The notes below the pieces were generated by a model. The model saw only the letters and a program-made list of their open reading frames with translations, was not told the DNA's origin and did not search any database. Shown piece by piece: positions 9,332 to 39,317 of a stretch of DNA of 64,000 bases (positions within the stretch are counted from its first letter, which is position 1; every line of letters begins with the position of its first letter). The position numbers and the translations under genes are program-made. The DNA lies in NCBI RefSeq assembly GCF_003054245.1, contig NZ_QBKR01000012.1, positions 1 through 64,000 on the forward strand. The letters are read 5' to 3'. Source of the DNA: Melghirimyces profundicolus. GTDB taxonomy: Bacteria > Bacillota > Bacilli > Thermoactinomycetales > DSM-45169.

Positions 9332-10711
9332 TTACTTGGGCTCCCACCGGAGCCGCTTGGGATAATGGTTTTTGAGCAATCCGCCGGAGACTTTGCCCCA
9401 GCCGAGGGAAAAGCCGTCGACGGTGACCAGGGTCCACCCTTTTTCCCCATCGGTGGGCAGAGCTTCCCCCCGGAGGTAGCGGTAGAGGTTTTCCTCGCCG
9501 GGGGTGAAGTCGATCCTCCGCCGGACCTGGTCGGGGGTGAGGGCCAGGGCGAGGGCGTGGGAAGGGGCGAAGTGTTTCCGTTTGGCCTGGCCCAGATAAA
9601 GGCCCGGCCGTTCCACCACCAGGCCCTTCAGAGAAGGGAGATTTTCCGGGACCTGATAGAGGTGGTCACCGAAGAGGGTGAAGGGCCCGTGGAAAAAGTC
9701 GCCGGTCAGGGTGTCATCGACGAAGGAGCGGAACACTCTTTGGGCGTCCCCGTGAACCGGAGGAAGCTTTCCCGGCTTCTGCCGGGCGCCTTCCTCCCCT
9801 TCGGTTTTTTCCAGAACCGCGACGAAGTGGCCTTCCCCCCGGAGGTGATGGGGCCATAAGCGGGCCGCTTTTTTCAGGGAGGGATCGGCTTCGGCCCACT
9901 CCGGGCGGGCGGGGGTGAAATGGCCGGAACCGGGGACCTCCCGGGGAACGAAGTGGGGGTGCCGCTCCAAAAACCGGTGGAGCACCCCTTCGTTTTCCCT
10001 GGGATTGAACGTGCAGGTGGAGTAGACCAGCCGACCGCCGGGGCGGAGCATCGGAGCCGCCTCTTCCAGGATGGAGAGCTGTAGATCGGCGGCCGCCTCC
10101 GTCGACCGGGGGCTCCAGCGGTCCCGGGTTTCCGGATCTTTGCGGAACATGCCTTCCCCGGAGCAGGGGGCATCGATCAGAATCCGGTCGAACCAGCCTG
10201 CAAACCGGGTGGAAAGATGCCGGGGATCTTCCCCCAGGATCACGGCGTTTTGGACGCCGCACCGCTCCAGGTTTTCCACCAACGCCTTTCTCCGGTCCCG
10301 GCTGATCTCGTTGGCCACGAGGACGCCCCTCCCTTTCATTTTGGCCGCGATCTGGGTACTCTTGCCGCCGGGAGCGGCACACAAGTCCAACACCGTTTCC
10401 CCCGGTTGCGGATCGAGGGCTTCCGCCGGAGCCATGGCGCTGGGATCCTGGATATAGTAGAGCCCGGCGGCGTGGTAAACGTGTTTTCCCGGACGGTCCG
10501 GTCCGTGTTCGTAGATAAAACCGGTGGGGCACCACGGGATCGGTTCCAGACGAAAAGGAAAACGCCTTCGCCCTTCCTCCAACGGGAGTTTCAGGGTATT
10601 GACGCGAAGTCCCCGGAGGGGTTCCTCCTCGTACGTTCGGATAAAAGCGGGGTATTCTTCCCCGAGAAGGTCTTCCATTTGATTGCGGTATGCTTCGGGA
10701 AGCCGGTCCAT
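9332..10711 (-). CDS. RsmF-type 16S rRNA (cytosine-C5)-methyltransferase
   Basis: SAM-dependent RNA m5C methyltransferase of the NOL1/NOP2/Sun (RsmF/YebU-like) family, 459 residues. It has SAM-binding motif I DLCAAPGGKSTQ, motif IV DAPCSGEGMF with one catalytic Cys, and motif VI YSTCTFNPRENEG with the second Cys. A C-terminal region of about 150 residues resembles the RsmF/PUA-type tail. ATG 10711 is preceded by AAAGGAG with 8 nt spacing; a longer reading from 10798 lacks an RBS. The exact target cytosine (1407 in E. coli RsmF) is not assignable. It is divergent from the selW-like gene, with TGCTACAAT as a likely extended -10. Confidence 0.88.
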   Translation of the reverse strand: MDRLPEAYRNQMEDLLGEEYPAFIRTYEEEPLRGLRVNTLKLPLEEGRRRFPFRLEPIPWCPTGFIYEHGPDRPGKHVYHAAGLYYIQDPSAMAPAEALDPQPGETVLDLCAAPGGKSTQIAAKMKGRGVLVANEISRDRRKALVENLERCGVQNAVILGEDPRHLSTRFAGWFDRILIDAPCSGEGMFRKDPETRDRWSPRSTEAAADLQLSILEEAAPMLRPGGRLVYSTCTFNPRENEGVLHRFLERHPHFVPREVPGSGHFTPARPEWAEADPSLKKAARLWPHHLRGEGHFVAVLEKTEGEEGARQKPGKLPPVHGDAQRVFRSFVDDTLTGDFFHGPFTLFGDHLYQVPENLPSLKGLVVERPGLYLGQAKRKHFAPSHALALALTPDQVRRRIDFTPGEENLYRYLRGEALPTDGEKGWTLVTVDGFSLGWGKVSGGLLKNHYPKRLRWEPK

Positions 10712-10790
10712 CGGTTCACTCCTTTCAATCCGTTCCGGTTGCGGTTCTCCCATTGTAGCAAAAAAGGACCGGCGGGGAAAAAGAGGGTTT

Positions 10791-10820
10791 TTGAACATTT
10801 GGCCCGCGGTTGTTTATAAT
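10791..10820 (+). promoter_or_regulatory. Sigma-A-like promoter of the selW-like gene
   Basis: TTGAAC, 18 bp, TATAAT. Transcription would start near 10827, on top of the AAGGAGG at 10821-10827. If this promoter is the real one, translation is more likely to start at a downstream TTG (10854). Confidence 0.5.
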
Positions 10821-10832
10821 AAGGAGGAAAAA

Positions 10833-11105
10833 TTGGATCAAAGGGTGATTCTTTTGGAAAAGAACTACAAAGTCAGCATCGAATTTTGCATGGCCTGAAA
10901 CTACGCACCGCGAGCTGCCCGTGCGGCAGAGGAACTGTTTGGCGAGTACCGCCATCAAATCAGCGAGATGACCCTGATCCCGTCCGGTGGAGGGGTCTTT
11001 GAAGTCACCGTGGACGGAAAGAAGATCTACTCCAAGAAAGAAACCGGGCGTCACGTGGAAGAAGGCGAGTTGCTCCGGTTGATGAAGAAGGTGACGGATG
11101 GATAA
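10833..11105 (+). CDS. SelW/SelT/SelH (Rdx) family protein, probable selenoprotein with in-frame UGA
   Basis: Thioredoxin-fold Rdx-family redox protein. Read through the TGA at 10896-10898 it gives 90 residues with the motif Cys-Met-Ala-Sec after a first beta strand (KVSIEF). NYAPRAARAAEEL and the family signature VFEVTVDGKKIYSKKETGR follow. The UGA falls exactly on the second redox residue of the CxxU/CxxC motif, and the frame stays open with normal codon use to TAA 11103-11105. Directly after the UGA, CUGCC-CGUGC-GGCAG (10914-10928) forms a stem-loop with G in its loop about 22 nt from the UGA, as in bacterial SECIS elements. AAGGAGG precedes TTG 10833 by 5 nt; TTG 10854 is an alternative start. 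selA/selB/selC are not in the window. A nonsense mutation is the alternative. Confidence 0.85.
10899..10932 (+). promoter_or_regulatory. Candidate bacterial SECIS element
   Basis: The hairpin CUGCC / GGCAG with loop CGUGC begins 15 nt 3' of the UGA, inside the coding sequence. A G sits at the second position of the apical loop. This meets the general bacterial SECIS pattern (UGA-to-loop spacing and a loop guanine); the fold is judged by eye. Confidence 0.5.
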
Positions 11106-11330: not shown

Positions 11331-12818
11331 ATGGCAGACAAGAAGCAAAAACAGGATTGGAAAAACCTCAAATTGGATAAATCCCTGGAGAAAAACACCG
11401 AGATCCTGGATGAAGTGCTCGGAGTGAAAAAGAGTTTTGACATCGTCAAAAGGGATTTGAATTACGCCGGCAAAAAGTTTGCCCTGTATTTTGTGGACGG
11501 GTTTGCAAAAGACGACATCCTGAACCGGATCATGGAGTATCTCGGCCGGTTGGATCGCGGGGATTTGGCCCCCCAGCCCATCAAAAAGCTCCTGGAAACC
11601 TATGTGGGTTATCTCGAAGTGGAAACGGCGGACAAATTGGAAACGATCGTCACCGGCGTTCTGTCCGGTCCCCTTGCCTTGTTGGTGGACGGGGAACAAG
11701 AGGCTGTCATGATCGATGCCCGGACGTACCCCGCCCGCAACCCGGAGGAACCGGATACGGAGCGGGTGGTCCGCGGCTCACGCGACGGGTTTGTGGAAAC
11801 CTTTATCTTCAATACGGCCCTTACCCGGCGTCGGTTGCGGGACCCCTCCCTGCGGATGGAGTATCATCAGGTGGGGAAACGGTCGAAAACCGACATCGCC
11901 ATCGCTTATCTGGAGGATGTGGCCGATCCGGAACTGGTGGAAACGCTCCGGACTTCCATCAAGAAAATTCAGGCGGACGGACTTCCCATGGCGGAAAAGA
12001 GCCTGGAAGAATACGTGTTCCGAAAAAACTGGAACCCTTACCCCATGGTCCGTTACACGGAACGGCCCGATGTGGCCTCGGTTCATCTCTTGGAGGGACA
12101 TGTCCTGATTTATGTGGATACGTCCCCCAGCGTGATGATCACACCCACCACCTTTTTTCACCATGTACAACATGCCGAAGAGTACCGGCAAAAGCCGGCG
12201 GTGGGGGCGGTGTTGCGCTGGGTGCGGTTTATCGCCATGTTTGTGTCCCTGTTTCTGGTTCCCCTGTGGTATCTGGCGGTGGTCCAGCCCGAGTTGTTGC
12301 CGAAGGCGCTGGAATTCATCGGGCCGAAAAAACCGGGTGAGATTCCTCTTTTCCTGGAGATGGTCATCGCGGAAGTCGGAGTGGAGATTCTCCGGATGGC
12401 CTCCATTCATACACCTTCCCCGCTGGCCACGGCCCTGGGTTTGATCGCCGCCATCCTGCTCGGGGAGATGGCGGTCCAGGCGGGGCTGTTCACTCCCGAG
12501 GTGATTCTCTATGTCGCGACCGCGGCGATCGGAACCTATGCCACCCCCAGCTATGAACTGGGGTTGGCCAATCGGATCACAAGGATGATTCTGCTGACGT
12601 TGACCGCCCTGTTCCAGGTTTGGGGATTGGTGTTGGGCGTGATCGCCTGGTTCATCCTGCTCGCCACCACGCGCTCCCTGAACGTTCCCTATCTGTGGCC
12701 TTTGATCCCCTTCAACGCCAAAGCGTTGCTGGACGTTCTTGTGCGCTCTCCCATGCCGATCAAAAGCAAACGTCCCCAGGTTTTGTCCCCGGGGGATCCC
12801 GACCGGCAACAGGGGTGA
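11331..12818 (+). CDS. spoVAF: SpoVAF-like GerA-family spore membrane protein
   Basis: A 495-residue GerA-family protein. The soluble N-terminal half (1-300) has the conserved LDKSLEKNTEILDEVLG and FVDGFAKDDIL region. The C-terminal half has four to six membrane helices (about 305-475) and the TPSPLATALGLIAAILLGEMAV segment. Length, the N-terminal signature and the tail resemble SpoVAF rather than GerAA. SpoVAF acts in the inner spore membrane during germination. In B. subtilis it belongs to the spoVA operon; here it stands alone. AGGAAGGTGG lies 8 nt before ATG 11331; a longer reading from 11139 starts inside the preceding terminator. An inverted repeat (TTGAGACGCC / GGCG...GTCTCAA, about 11224-11261) lies in its leader. 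Confidence 0.8.
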   Translation: MADKKQKQDWKNLKLDKSLEKNTEILDEVLGVKKSFDIVKRDLNYAGKKFALYFVDGFAKDDILNRIMEYLGRLDRGDLAPQPIKKLLETYVGYLEVETADKLETIVTGVLSGPLALLVDGEQEAVMIDARTYPARNPEEPDTERVVRGSRDGFVETFIFNTALTRRRLRDPSLRMEYHQVGKRSKTDIAIAYLEDVADPELVETLRTSIKKIQADGLPMAEKSLEEYVFRKNWNPYPMVRYTERPDVASVHLLEGHVLIYVDTSPSVMITPTTFFHHVQHAEEYRQKPAVGAVLRWVRFIAMFVSLFLVPLWYLAVVQPELLPKALEFIGPKKPGEIPLFLEMVIAEVGVEILRMASIHTPSPLATALGLIAAILLGEMAVQAGLFTPEVILYVATAAIGTYATPSYELGLANRITRMILLTLTALFQVWGLVLGVIAWFILLATTRSLNVPYLWPLIPFNAKALLDVLVRSPMPIKSKRPQVLSPGDPDRQQG

Positions 12819-17547: not shown

Positions 17548-17862
17548 ATGGCGATTAAAGAAGTAACCGATCAAACGTTCAACAATGAAGTGGCCTCCGG
17601 AACCGTTCTCGTGGACTTTTGGGCCCCTTGGTGCGGACCCTGCAAAATGATCGCGCCGGTGCTTGAGGAAATAGATCAGGAAGTGGGCGACAAGCTGACC
17701 ATCGCCAAAGTGAACGTGGATGACAATCCGGATACGGCCGGCCGTTACGGTGTGATGAGCATCCCCACCCTGATGGTGTTCAAAGATGGCGAGATGGTGG
17801 ATAAACTCCACGGCTTCCAACCGAAAGAGCAACTGCTGGAGTGGCTGAATCCCCACTTCTGA
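17548..17862 (+). CDS. trxA: Thioredoxin
   Basis: A 104-residue cytosolic disulfide reductase with the classical WCGPC active site (residues about 28-32), conserved [10 protein letters not shown], and cis-Pro in MSIPTL. It reduces ribonucleotide reductase, methionine sulfoxide reductases and others, itself recycled by thioredoxin reductase. AAGGAGG lies 7-8 nt before the ATG. The position between etfA and uvrC matches B. subtilis. Monocistronic, with its own promoter and terminator. Confidence 0.97.
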
Positions 17863-36773: not shown

Positions 36774-37658
36774 TCAGGATGAGAAGGCTTTTTTCAGTGA
36801 ATCAATCAGTTCGGCCAGCCAAGTAAACAGCTTGTCGAGGAAGCTTTTCGCCTCTTCGGAGTTGACCACCTGATCCAGGTTTCTCTTCAGCTGGTCCAAC
36901 TGGCTGCTCAGGCTGTCCCAGTCGATGTTCAGCTCCGAAAATTTGACCATCAGATTGGTGATCCGTTCGATGTCTTGGTCGTTCAGGTTGATGTTCATGT
37001 CTCCGGCCACGTTGACAATGATGTCGCGCACTTCTTTCGCGGATTGAGGTTGTTCCTGGGCGATTTCATCCTTGACCCGGTTCATGAATTCGACAGCCTT
37101 CTCTTTGTCTCCGATGGATTGACCCAGCTCGGAGGTCCGGACCATCTCTTCATTGGCGACCTGTTTTTGTTCTTCTGTGATGTTCTTGCCGGCGGCCGCT
37201 TCAAAAGCTTTCAGGATTCCCGTCAATCCCGCGGTTCCGGAGACTTCCATCGGTGCCGTGACATACACCTCTGCATCTTTCACCCCGGCCGTGACCAGGG
37301 CGTTGGCATACATCTGATCGGTGATGGTGCTGATATTGTTGGTTTCGACCTGAATGCCGGACCCTTTTTCCGTCAGGGTGATTTTTGCGGAGGAAAGGGC
37401 GCGGCTACCGATGGTGGCCTCATCCAGGTATTGGCCCAGGTAGCGGTGCTCCTCTTCGTTGGTGACCGTGATCTGTTTCACGTTGTTGTCGACATTCATC
37501 TCTTGAAGGATCTGTTCCTTTTGCTGGGGGGTCAGATCCTGCCCGAGCGTCACCACCGTCTCACCCGTCACAGCATCGGCGAAGGCGGTGCTTGGAACGG
37601 CAACGGCAAAAAGGAAAAGGCCGATGAGTGCCCACAGGGATTTGTTTTTCTTTTTCAT
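36774..37658 (-). CDS. ypuA: DUF1002 (YpuA-like) secreted protein
   Basis: A 294-residue protein of uncharacterised family DUF1002, similar in length to B. subtilis YpuA. A signal peptide is present (MKKKNKSLWALIGLFLFAVA, cleavage near AFADA, residues 26-28). The family opening GETVVTLGQDLTPQQKEQIL is followed by the conserved ITVTNEEEHRYLG and KITLTEKGSGIQVETNNI. The C-terminus is helical. ATG 37658 is preceded by AAAGGGGG; the reading from 37772 starts in a terminator. The export signal places it outside the membrane. Role unknown. Confidence 0.85.
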   Translation of the reverse strand: MKKKNKSLWALIGLFLFAVAVPSTAFADAVTGETVVTLGQDLTPQQKEQILQEMNVDNNVKQITVTNEEEHRYLGQYLDEATIGSRALSSAKITLTEKGSGIQVETNNISTITDQMYANALVTAGVKDAEVYVTAPMEVSGTAGLTGILKAFEAAAGKNITEEQKQVANEEMVRTSELGQSIGDKEKAVEFMNRVKDEIAQEQPQSAKEVRDIIVNVAGDMNINLNDQDIERITNLMVKFSELNIDWDSLSSQLDQLKRNLDQVVNSEEAKSFLDKLFTWLAELIDSLKKAFSS

Positions 37659-37730
37659 TTCCGAAAACCCCCTTTCACCCATATATAGACGATGATAAGG
37701 ATCGGAATGTTTCATCGGATGAGCTGGATG

Positions 37731-37770
37731 AAAAAGGGGCTGCTGACGATCCATCATTGTCAGCAGCCCC
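37731..37770 (-). terminator. Terminator of the fumarase gene
   Basis: On the minus strand GGGGCTGCTGAC ... GTCAGCAGCCCC is followed by TTTTT. Confidence 0.95.
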
Positions 37771-37778
37771 AAACCGCT

Positions 37779-39317
37779 TCAGGCGAAGACTTTTTCCCTG
37801 AATTGGGCCAGCCGTTCCAGGGAATCCAGTTCGACATCCTTGTGAAGGCTGTTGCCGTGTGCGTCCATGGTGACGATGGCGGCGAAGTTCTTCACCCTGA
37901 GGTGCCACATCGCTTCCGGAACCCCGAATTCCATGAAGTGAACGCCTTCGACCCCTGTGATGCAATCGGCGTAGTACTGGGCGGCGCCGCCGATGGCATT
38001 CAGATAGACGGCGCCGTGTTCCTTCAGGCCTTCCAGGGTGCGGGCGCCCATGCCGCCTTTACCGATCACGGCACGGATGCCGAACTTTTTGATGATATCG
38101 GCCTGGTAGGGTTCTTCCCGAATGCTGGTGGTGGGGCCCGCCGCCTTGACCTCCCAGTTTCCATCCTTGTCTTTCAGCATCACCGGGCCGCAGTGATAGA
38201 TGACACCGCCTTCCAGATCGACGGGAGCATCGTGGTCGATCAGGTATTTGTGGAGCGCGTCCCGGCCGGTGTGAATCAGCCCGTCCAGAATCACCACATC
38301 CCCGACCGAGAGGTTTCGGATGTCTTCTTCGGAGATGGGGGGCGTCAACCGGACTTCCCGCGTGGACGAGGCGGGAGCTTCCTGTTTCGGCTCGGACACC
38401 GTGACGGATTCAAACTTGGGTTCGTCCTTATAGAGCCAACGGTTGATGTTTCCCGTTTTCGGGTCGATGCTCACTCCTTGACGGCGAAACGCCCAGCAGT
38501 TGTATGCCACCGAGACGTAGAAGCTGGCCGGAATCCGGTGCATGGATCCGATTTTGCAGCCGAGGAGGGTGGTGTTTCCGCCGAAGCCCATGGTGCCGAT
38601 GCTGAGCTTGTTGGCGTTTTCCATGATGTAGTCCTCCAGGCGGGCCAGATCCGGATGGGGATTGGTGTCATCCGCTTTGCGGAAGAGTTGCTTTTTCGCC
38701 AATTCATAACCGGTGGTCCGGTCGCCTCCGATTCCCACACCGATGAAACCGGCGCTGCACCCCTGACCTTGGGCCTGATAAACGCTGTGGATGATGCACT
38801 TTCGGATGCCGTCGAGATCCCGTCCGGCCCGGCCCAGTCCTTCCAGTTCACAGGGGAGGCTGTATTGGATGTTTTTGTTTTCACAGCCGCCCCCTTTTAA
38901 GATCAGACGGACATCGATCTCGTCTTTGTCCCACTGTTCATAGTGGATGACCGGAACGCCTTCGCCCAAGTTGTCTCCGCTGTTCTCGCCGGTCAGGGAA
39001 TCGACGGAGTTGGGGCGGAGTTTTCCGGTGCGGGTCGCTTCCACGACGGCTTCCCGGATCGCCTGCGTCATCTTCAGTTGGTTGACGCCGACGGGAACAT
39101 GAATATAGAAGGTGGGCATGCCCGTATCCTGGCAGATGGGGGAGACATTCTCCTCCGCCATTTGGATGTTGTCGGAGATGGTGGACAGGGCCAACGCAGC
39201 CCGTGTCCCGGCATTCTCCCGTTCTTTCGCATTCCGGATGGCTGCGCGGACATCCGGGGGGAGGTTGGTGGAGGTTTCCGTGATTAACTCCAGGATCGAT
39301 TCTTTTAATGATTCCAT
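37779..39317 (-). CDS. Class I (iron-sulfur) fumarate hydratase
   Basis: Converts fumarate to malate in the TCA cycle with an oxygen-sensitive [4Fe-4S] cluster. The 512-residue single chain fuses the alpha (about 1-285: ICQDTGMPTFYIHVPVG, GGGCENKN, GQGCSAGFIGVGIGG) and beta (about 325-505: GDVVILDGLIHTGRDALHKYL, HCGPVM, GKGGMG, HFMEFGVPEAMW) domains. Three Cys (QDTG-adjacent Cys, GGGCEN, QGCSAG) match cluster ligands. AAAGGAG lies 11 nt upstream. It lies just after sdhCAB on the other strand. B. subtilis uses class II FumC; no fumC is visible here. Confidence 0.93.
   Translation of the reverse strand: MESLKESILELITETSTNLPPDVRAAIRNAKERENAGTRAALALSTISDNIQMAEENVSPICQDTGMPTFYIHVPVGVNQLKMTQAIREAVVEATRTGKLRPNSVDSLTGENSGDNLGEGVPVIHYEQWDKDEIDVRLILKGGGCENKNIQYSLPCELEGLGRAGRDLDGIRKCIIHSVYQAQGQGCSAGFIGVGIGGDRTTGYELAKKQLFRKADDTNPHPDLARLEDYIMENANKLSIGTMGFGGNTTLLGCKIGSMHRIPASFYVSVAYNCWAFRRQGVSIDPKTGNINRWLYKDEPKFESVTVSEPKQEAPASSTREVRLTPPISEEDIRNLSVGDVVILDGLIHTGRDALHKYLIDHDAPVDLEGGVIYHCGPVMLKDKDGNWEVKAAGPTTSIREEPYQADIIKKFGIRAVIGKGGMGARTLEGLKEHGAVYLNAIGGAAQYYADCITGVEGVHFMEFGVPEAMWHLRVKNFAAIVTMDAHGNSLHKDVELDSLERLAQFREKVFA

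Follow-up and report, generated by a model that had tools for sequence, protein, structure and literature searches.

The selW-like gene and its surroundings

The window, by which we mean the whole stretch of 64,000 nt from Melghirimyces profundicolus that was analysed, carries on its plus strand a selW-like gene (10854-11105) with a predicted product of 83 amino acids. Its frame contains one in-frame TGA (10896-10898, +), a putative selenocysteine (Sec) codon for residue 15, and is otherwise open from 10833, or from 10854, to a TAA at 11103-11105. The read-through product exceeded the curated cut-offs of all three SelW-like (Rdx) family profiles: Pfam PF10262 (E 2.6e-21, 76.0 bits, cut-off 22.6), NCBIfam NF041051 (91.7 bits, cut-off 88) and TIGR02174 (63.0 bits, cut-off 34.2). 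In the alignment, the TGA occupies the position of the second redox Cys of the homologues. The original prediction had put the TGA at the second redox position of a CxxU motif and had the frame run past it to a normal stop. The family profiles and aligned homologues agree with the former, and the TAA is reached with no second stop in between.

The same prediction gave the gene as 10833-11105. Its end stands, but its start is probably seven codons too early. A sigma-A-type promoter match, TTGAAC-18-TATAAT, lies at 10791-10820 (+); it is a match to the consensus only, and the search upstream of selW returned two overlapping matches against 0.1 expected. Identical hexamers with identical spacing were found upstream of the SelW gene of a relative (L049). 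Judged by the position of this match, the transcript would start near 10827, and the Shine-Dalgarno-like AAGGAGG (10821-10827) belonging to the TTG at 10833 would thus fall outside the mRNA. The ATG with which the SelW gene of Melghirimyces thermohalophilus begins (MEKSYK...) stands opposite the TTG at 10854 in the alignment, and this TTG is preceded by a second putative Shine-Dalgarno sequence, AAAGGGTGAT (10840-10849, +). Because of the promoter placement and this alignment, the TTG at 10854 is more likely to be the start, with the TTG at 10833 as the alternative.

For context, the divergent neighbour is an RsmF-type rRNA methyltransferase gene (9332-10720, -, in the stretch scanned) and the downstream neighbour encodes a GerA-type spore germination protein (11331-12818, +). 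The methyltransferase precedes SelW in the window and in four related loci (L049-L052), that is, in five of five. No match to SelD, SelA or SelB was detected in the window (tblastn, E at most 1e-20).

Conservation of the TGA codon and of a downstream hairpin

Conservation was assessed in two sets of relatives. The first comprised 151 genomes, namely the genome of M. profundicolus and 150 relatives reaching out to the class. The second, the named set, comprised the best 80 of 298 relatives; these were ranked by their match to Bacilli sequences and are not an unbiased sample. The two sets are not independent, as at least five genomes are shared (L049 is G001, L050 is G004, L051 is G003, L052 is G007 and L057 is G060). 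In the first set, Rdx/SelW genes were found in 28 of the 151 genomes, in 29 copies. Exactly one TGA, and no other type of stop at this codon, was present in 28 of the 29 copies; the remaining copy, a paralogue, has a Cys codon. One genome (G042) holds both a Sec copy (L046) and a Cys copy (L025) of SelW, and the Cys copy is without the hairpin described below. In the named set, the redox codon was TGA in 80 of 80 loci (best 80 of 298), from phyla that include Bacillota, Chloroflexota, Neomarinimicrobiota, Actinomycetota and Gemmatimonadetes. Cys-form members of the family exist outside this set, for example the protein of PDB entry 2fa8. The relatives have thus kept the TGA rather than a sense codon, and the in-frame UGA aligns with the Cys of homologues.

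The sequence context of the named loci was examined over about 4 kb on each side, with the SelD, SelA and SelB of M. profundicolus as tblastn queries (E at most 1e-20). Among these best 80 of 298, homologues of SelD were found near 37 loci, of SelA near 34 and of SelB near 13, the SelB matches including other GTPases and unsorted paralogues. SelD or SelA was present near 39 of the 80, and any of the three near 43. In 34 named loci a SelD homologue is the divergent neighbour of selW, as in Fictibacillus, Neobacillus and Cytobacillus.

Comparison of the 65 post-UGA codons of the window gene with those of L049 yielded 27 identical, 24 synonymous and 14 nonsynonymous codons, and the differences fell on codon positions one, two and three in 11, 8 and 30 cases, an excess at the third position. 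Five of the seven invariant columns of the SelW alignment lie past the UGA. These observations bear on the idea that the UGA mostly terminates translation and that the locus is a selenium-sensing leader from which little SelW is produced. UGA is also a stop codon, and the efficiency of its decoding is invisible in sequence, but five invariant columns and mostly third-position changes beyond the UGA argue against a leader, which we consider extremely unlikely.

The original prediction also described a hairpin with a loop G at SECIS distance past the UGA, and the comparative data bear this out. The putative bacterial SECIS (10915-10929, +) consists of CTGCC (10915-10919), the loop CGTGC (10920-10924) and GGCAG (10925-10929), i.e., a 5-bp stem and a 5-nt loop, with the conserved G (10921) at the second loop position, followed by U, and 21 nt from UGA to loop. 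The published limits for bacterial SECIS elements, as quoted in PMC13188914, are a loop of 3-9 nt, an upper stem of 4-16 bp, a G at loop position 1 or 2, a UGA-to-loop distance of 16-37 nt and an energy of at most -7.5 kcal/mol. The window hairpin lies within these limits, with -7.6 kcal/mol in a fold of 23 nt and -9.8 kcal/mol in one of 37 nt.

We aligned the 60 nt from the UGA onward for the 28 TGA genes (27 distinct rows, with the Cys copy left out). A single helix of five pairs was predicted; all 135 of 135 cells were paired and four of the five pairs had changed on both sides. The covariation score was 0.475 against a shuffle mean of 0.205 and was matched by none of 500 shuffles, as were the percentage of paired cells and the number of cells with both-side changes. 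Two measures were weaker: the count of pairs changed on both sides was reached in 16 of 500 shuffles and the number of further pair types in 299 of 500. Sliding the partner strand by one to three columns reduced the paired cells to 24-63%.

As the hairpin lies inside the coding sequence, synonymous codon shuffling was used as a control; as a simplification, the codon use of all 29 first-set genes was pooled. The full 5-bp stem was present in 28 of 28 TGA genes compared with 4.5 on average, and at most 11, in 2000 shuffles, and none of the five pairs could form in the Cys paralogue L025. In the named set (best 80 of 298), the full stem was present in 65 of 80 loci compared with a mean of 11.5 (maximum 21, 500 rounds); in this register the other 15 stems were incomplete, 14 having four pairs and one having three.

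Folding of the single sequence was rejected as proof of a SECIS. A 56-nt stretch of the window folded into a different minimum structure (-13.8 kcal/mol, z +1.03), and 177 of 200 shuffles folded at least equally well. Among four shorter stretches, the hairpin was in the minimum structure at 23 nt (-7.6 kcal/mol) and 37 nt (-9.8 kcal/mol) and absent from it at 30 and 42 nt. Given this weakness of single-sequence folding, the support for the SECIS is comparative.

The TGA is one base away from TGT or TGC, and the family includes a Cys form (L025), as might be expected if a nonsense mutation or a sequencing error had turned a Cys codon into TGA and left a pseudogene. Against this, 28 of the 29 first-set genes and all 80 named loci (best 80 of 298), which come from several phyla, carry the same TGA; the third-position excess past the TGA, the lack of any other stop and the covarying hairpin point the same way. 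A pseudogene is therefore exceedingly improbable.

Selenocysteine machinery and its possible uses

That the organism has Sec machinery had been predicted from the window; the absence of its genes would have told against a selenoprotein. Profile searches of the M. profundicolus genome (3.77 Mb, 67 contigs) detected selA (600.9 bits), selB (371.4 bits) and selD (392 bits, carrying one TGA), as well as a tRNA-Sec gene, or selC (68.4 bits, above the cut-off), which ARAGORN reported as tRNA-SeC with anticodon tca. All four genes of the pathway are thus present in one genome, and they lie on the same contig (C1). The TGA of selD (L014, G000:C1, TGA at contig position 245268, -) falls within AGUGCK, at what we take to be the catalytic position of SelD, and SelD itself is therefore a predicted selenoprotein.

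The accompanying remark that such machinery is uncommon in Bacillales found no support: selA was above the cut-off in 45 of the 151 genomes, in a sample reaching out to the class. SelW genes were present in 28 of these 45 genomes and in none of the 106 without selA above the cut-off (Fisher P 4.7e-19, uncorrected for relatedness), so that not even a Cys-form SelW was detected among the 106. The other 17 of the 45 had selA above the cut-off yet no SelW. A selD with one TGA was found in 44 genomes (E at most 1e-60), all within the 45 selA genomes; for the 45th, G082, the search at this E value returned no selD. An uninterrupted full-length selD without selA above the cut-off was present in six genomes.

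These distributions also bear on whether the UGA might be decoded as Cys or Trp, or read through by a near-cognate tRNA, rather than as Sec. Selenium-starved cells are known, in principle, to misincorporate other residues at UGA. Such readthrough requires neither Sec genes nor a hairpin, and both therefore count against it: SelW occurs only alongside selA above the cut-off (28/45 versus 0/106), tRNA-Sec is present in the same genome, and the hairpin is found in the 28 TGA copies and not in the single Cys copy. We consider decoding as another residue very unlikely. The window gene is almost certainly, as judged from the comparative sequence data, a working SelW-like (Rdx) selenoprotein gene whose UGA is read as selenocysteine.

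SelW as the sole user of Sec besides SelD was considered and rejected because three more TGA-interrupted redox genes were found in the same genome (L129, L130 and L131), their families confirmed by Pfam. These searches were made with single families (AhpC-TSA and thioredoxin), and the size of the selenoproteome is thus a lower bound. L131 (G000:C9, match 69270-69566, -) is a thioredoxin gene in which TGA takes the place of the first active-site Cys (WUPAC) and is followed by a hairpin with a GGU loop; it probably encodes a second redox selenoprotein. The window also has an uninterrupted thioredoxin gene (17548-17862). L130 (G000:C2, match 240935-241333, +), an AhpC-TSA gene whose TGA lies in AWUPVC and whose 7-bp hairpin has a GGU loop, probably encodes a selenoprotein too. 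L129 (G000:C21, match 37502-37858, +) is a peroxiredoxin gene; its TGA occupies the peroxidatic position (FTFVUPTE) and is followed by a strong hairpin. Its family match stops early and the frame is apparently lost downstream, so this gene may be decaying or may contain a sequence error. In folds of the 54 nt after the TGA, all three genes had a three-base loop with a G, in GGU for L130 and L131 and at the third place for L129. An AhpC-TSA search of ten genomes (G001-G006 and G010-G013) returned one further TGA case (G006:C1:991248-991532); as only G006 shows a TGA among the ten, L129 and L130 are without a TGA counterpart in the same-genus genome (G001). A scan of the window for more TGA genes left 22 filtered candidates, none of which was recognised by eye as a redox protein. 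The filter drops SelW itself, which is covered by an antisense ORF, and the scan therefore does not speak against further genes of this kind.

The original prediction regarded mobA in the window as compatible with a Sec- and Mo-dependent formate dehydrogenase elsewhere in the genome; a Sec-dependent formate dehydrogenase was not supported. The only FdhA match above the family cut-off has no stop and reads CSRYCQSP, i.e., it is a Cys form, with Cys presumably at the position where other formate dehydrogenases have Sec; a second match (333 bits) is under the cut-off and likewise has no stop. Judged by the match above the cut-off, a Sec-dependent formate dehydrogenase was rejected as an explanation of why this organism has Sec genes. 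Across the 151 genomes, a TGA-bearing FdhA was found in at least 14 among the matches listed (E at most 1e-100), all 14 with selA, and six of these 14 were among the 28 SelW genomes. The remaining 22 of the 28 SelW genomes had no TGA-bearing FdhA among the matches listed. Nine genomes (G015, G045, G048, G049, G051, G069, G072, G119 and G125) had selA and neither SelW nor, among the matches listed, a TGA-bearing FdhA. In these Bacilli, the Sec machinery may chiefly serve a thiol-redox selenoproteome (SelD and SelW and, in M. profundicolus, a thioredoxin plus one or two members of the peroxiredoxin family) rather than formate dehydrogenase, with SelW dependent on Sec; we see this proposal as evenly balanced between being right and wrong.

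Predicted structure, mechanism and known SelW-like proteins

An AlphaFold2 model of the product (36 sequences, Sec modelled as Cys) had a mean pLDDT of 91.9, with a strand at residues 5-12 and a helix at 18-32. In this predicted model, positions 12 and 15 lie at the junction of strand 1 and helix 1 of a thioredoxin-like fold. The best structural match was 2fa8 (TM 0.91), followed by MIEN1, mouse SelW and, weakly, thioredoxins. By analogy with established bacterial Sec decoding, SelA would make Sec-tRNA from seryl-tRNA-Sec with selenophosphate supplied by SelD, here a predicted Sec enzyme itself, and SelB with GTP and Sec-tRNA-Sec would bind the hairpin and decode the UGA. Cys12 and Sec15, numbered from the TTG at 10854, would sit in the loop that joins strand 1 to helix 1. 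After attack of the selenolate on a peroxide or a disulfide, Cys12 and Sec15 would form a selenenylsulfide, which thioredoxin or a cellular thiol would reduce. SelW presumably acts in thiol-disulfide or peroxide reduction via the Cys-Sec pair.

Published descriptions of SelW-like selenoproteins go back to 2005. They were the most abundant selenoprotein family in Sargasso Sea data (PMC1088965) and appear in later surveys (PMC1794560; PMC5029168, with 35 organisms). A 2026 review lists the prokaryotic SelW-like family (SELENOW-like, PF10262, CxxU) as 'predicted with high confidence' and not as 'experimentally verified' (PMC13188914); with the family in prokaryotes at that stage, a culturable host could help in a first test. 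One survey describes very few or no Cys homologues of SelW-like proteins in Sec-containing organisms (PMC1794560), and this part of our results is thus a confirmation. The same 2006 survey counted three selenoproteins in Bacillales, in contrast to the 28 of 151 genomes in which selA and a TGA-bearing SelW occur together here. Sec genes in Bacillales are already in print, a selenocysteine synthase having been reported in two species of Aneurinibacillus (PMC7996765). Our search of an open-licence library of papers found nothing joining selenocysteine with Thermoactinomycetaceae or with Melghirimyces and, from 2009 on, nothing joining SelW-like, Bacillus, selenoprotein and TGA. Within those papers, selenoproteins of Thermoactinomycetaceae seem little described. 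Standard gene calling ends at the UGA and misses the protein, which makes it easy to underestimate how widely spore-forming Bacilli use selenium.

The bacterial SelW-related proteins of known structure (PDB 2fa8, 3dex, 2p0g, 2oka, 2obk and 2ojl) have the same fold as the model (TM 0.83-0.91, 27-36% identity). The second redox position is Cys in 2fa8 (CTQC), whereas the window gene has UGA, for Sec, there. Mouse SelW (PDB 2npb) belongs to the same family by profile (E 1.4e-08) and is more remote in fold (TM 0.69). Mammalian selenoprotein W also differs in having a eukaryotic SECIS in the 3' UTR, whereas in bacteria the element is part of the coding sequence (PMC1088965). The published bSECIS model has, as its commonest loop pattern, one in which the first and last bases pair (PMC13188914); those of the window hairpin, C and C, do not. 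With the known bacterial SelW-like selenoproteins, as described in the available text of PMC1088965 and PMC13188914, the window gene shares the Rdx family, the CxxU motif with UGA at U and a small apical G-bearing loop just past the UGA, and we found no feature there that separates it from them. The gene is thus of a known kind and adds a member from Thermoactinomycetaceae to the known SelW-like selenoproteins.
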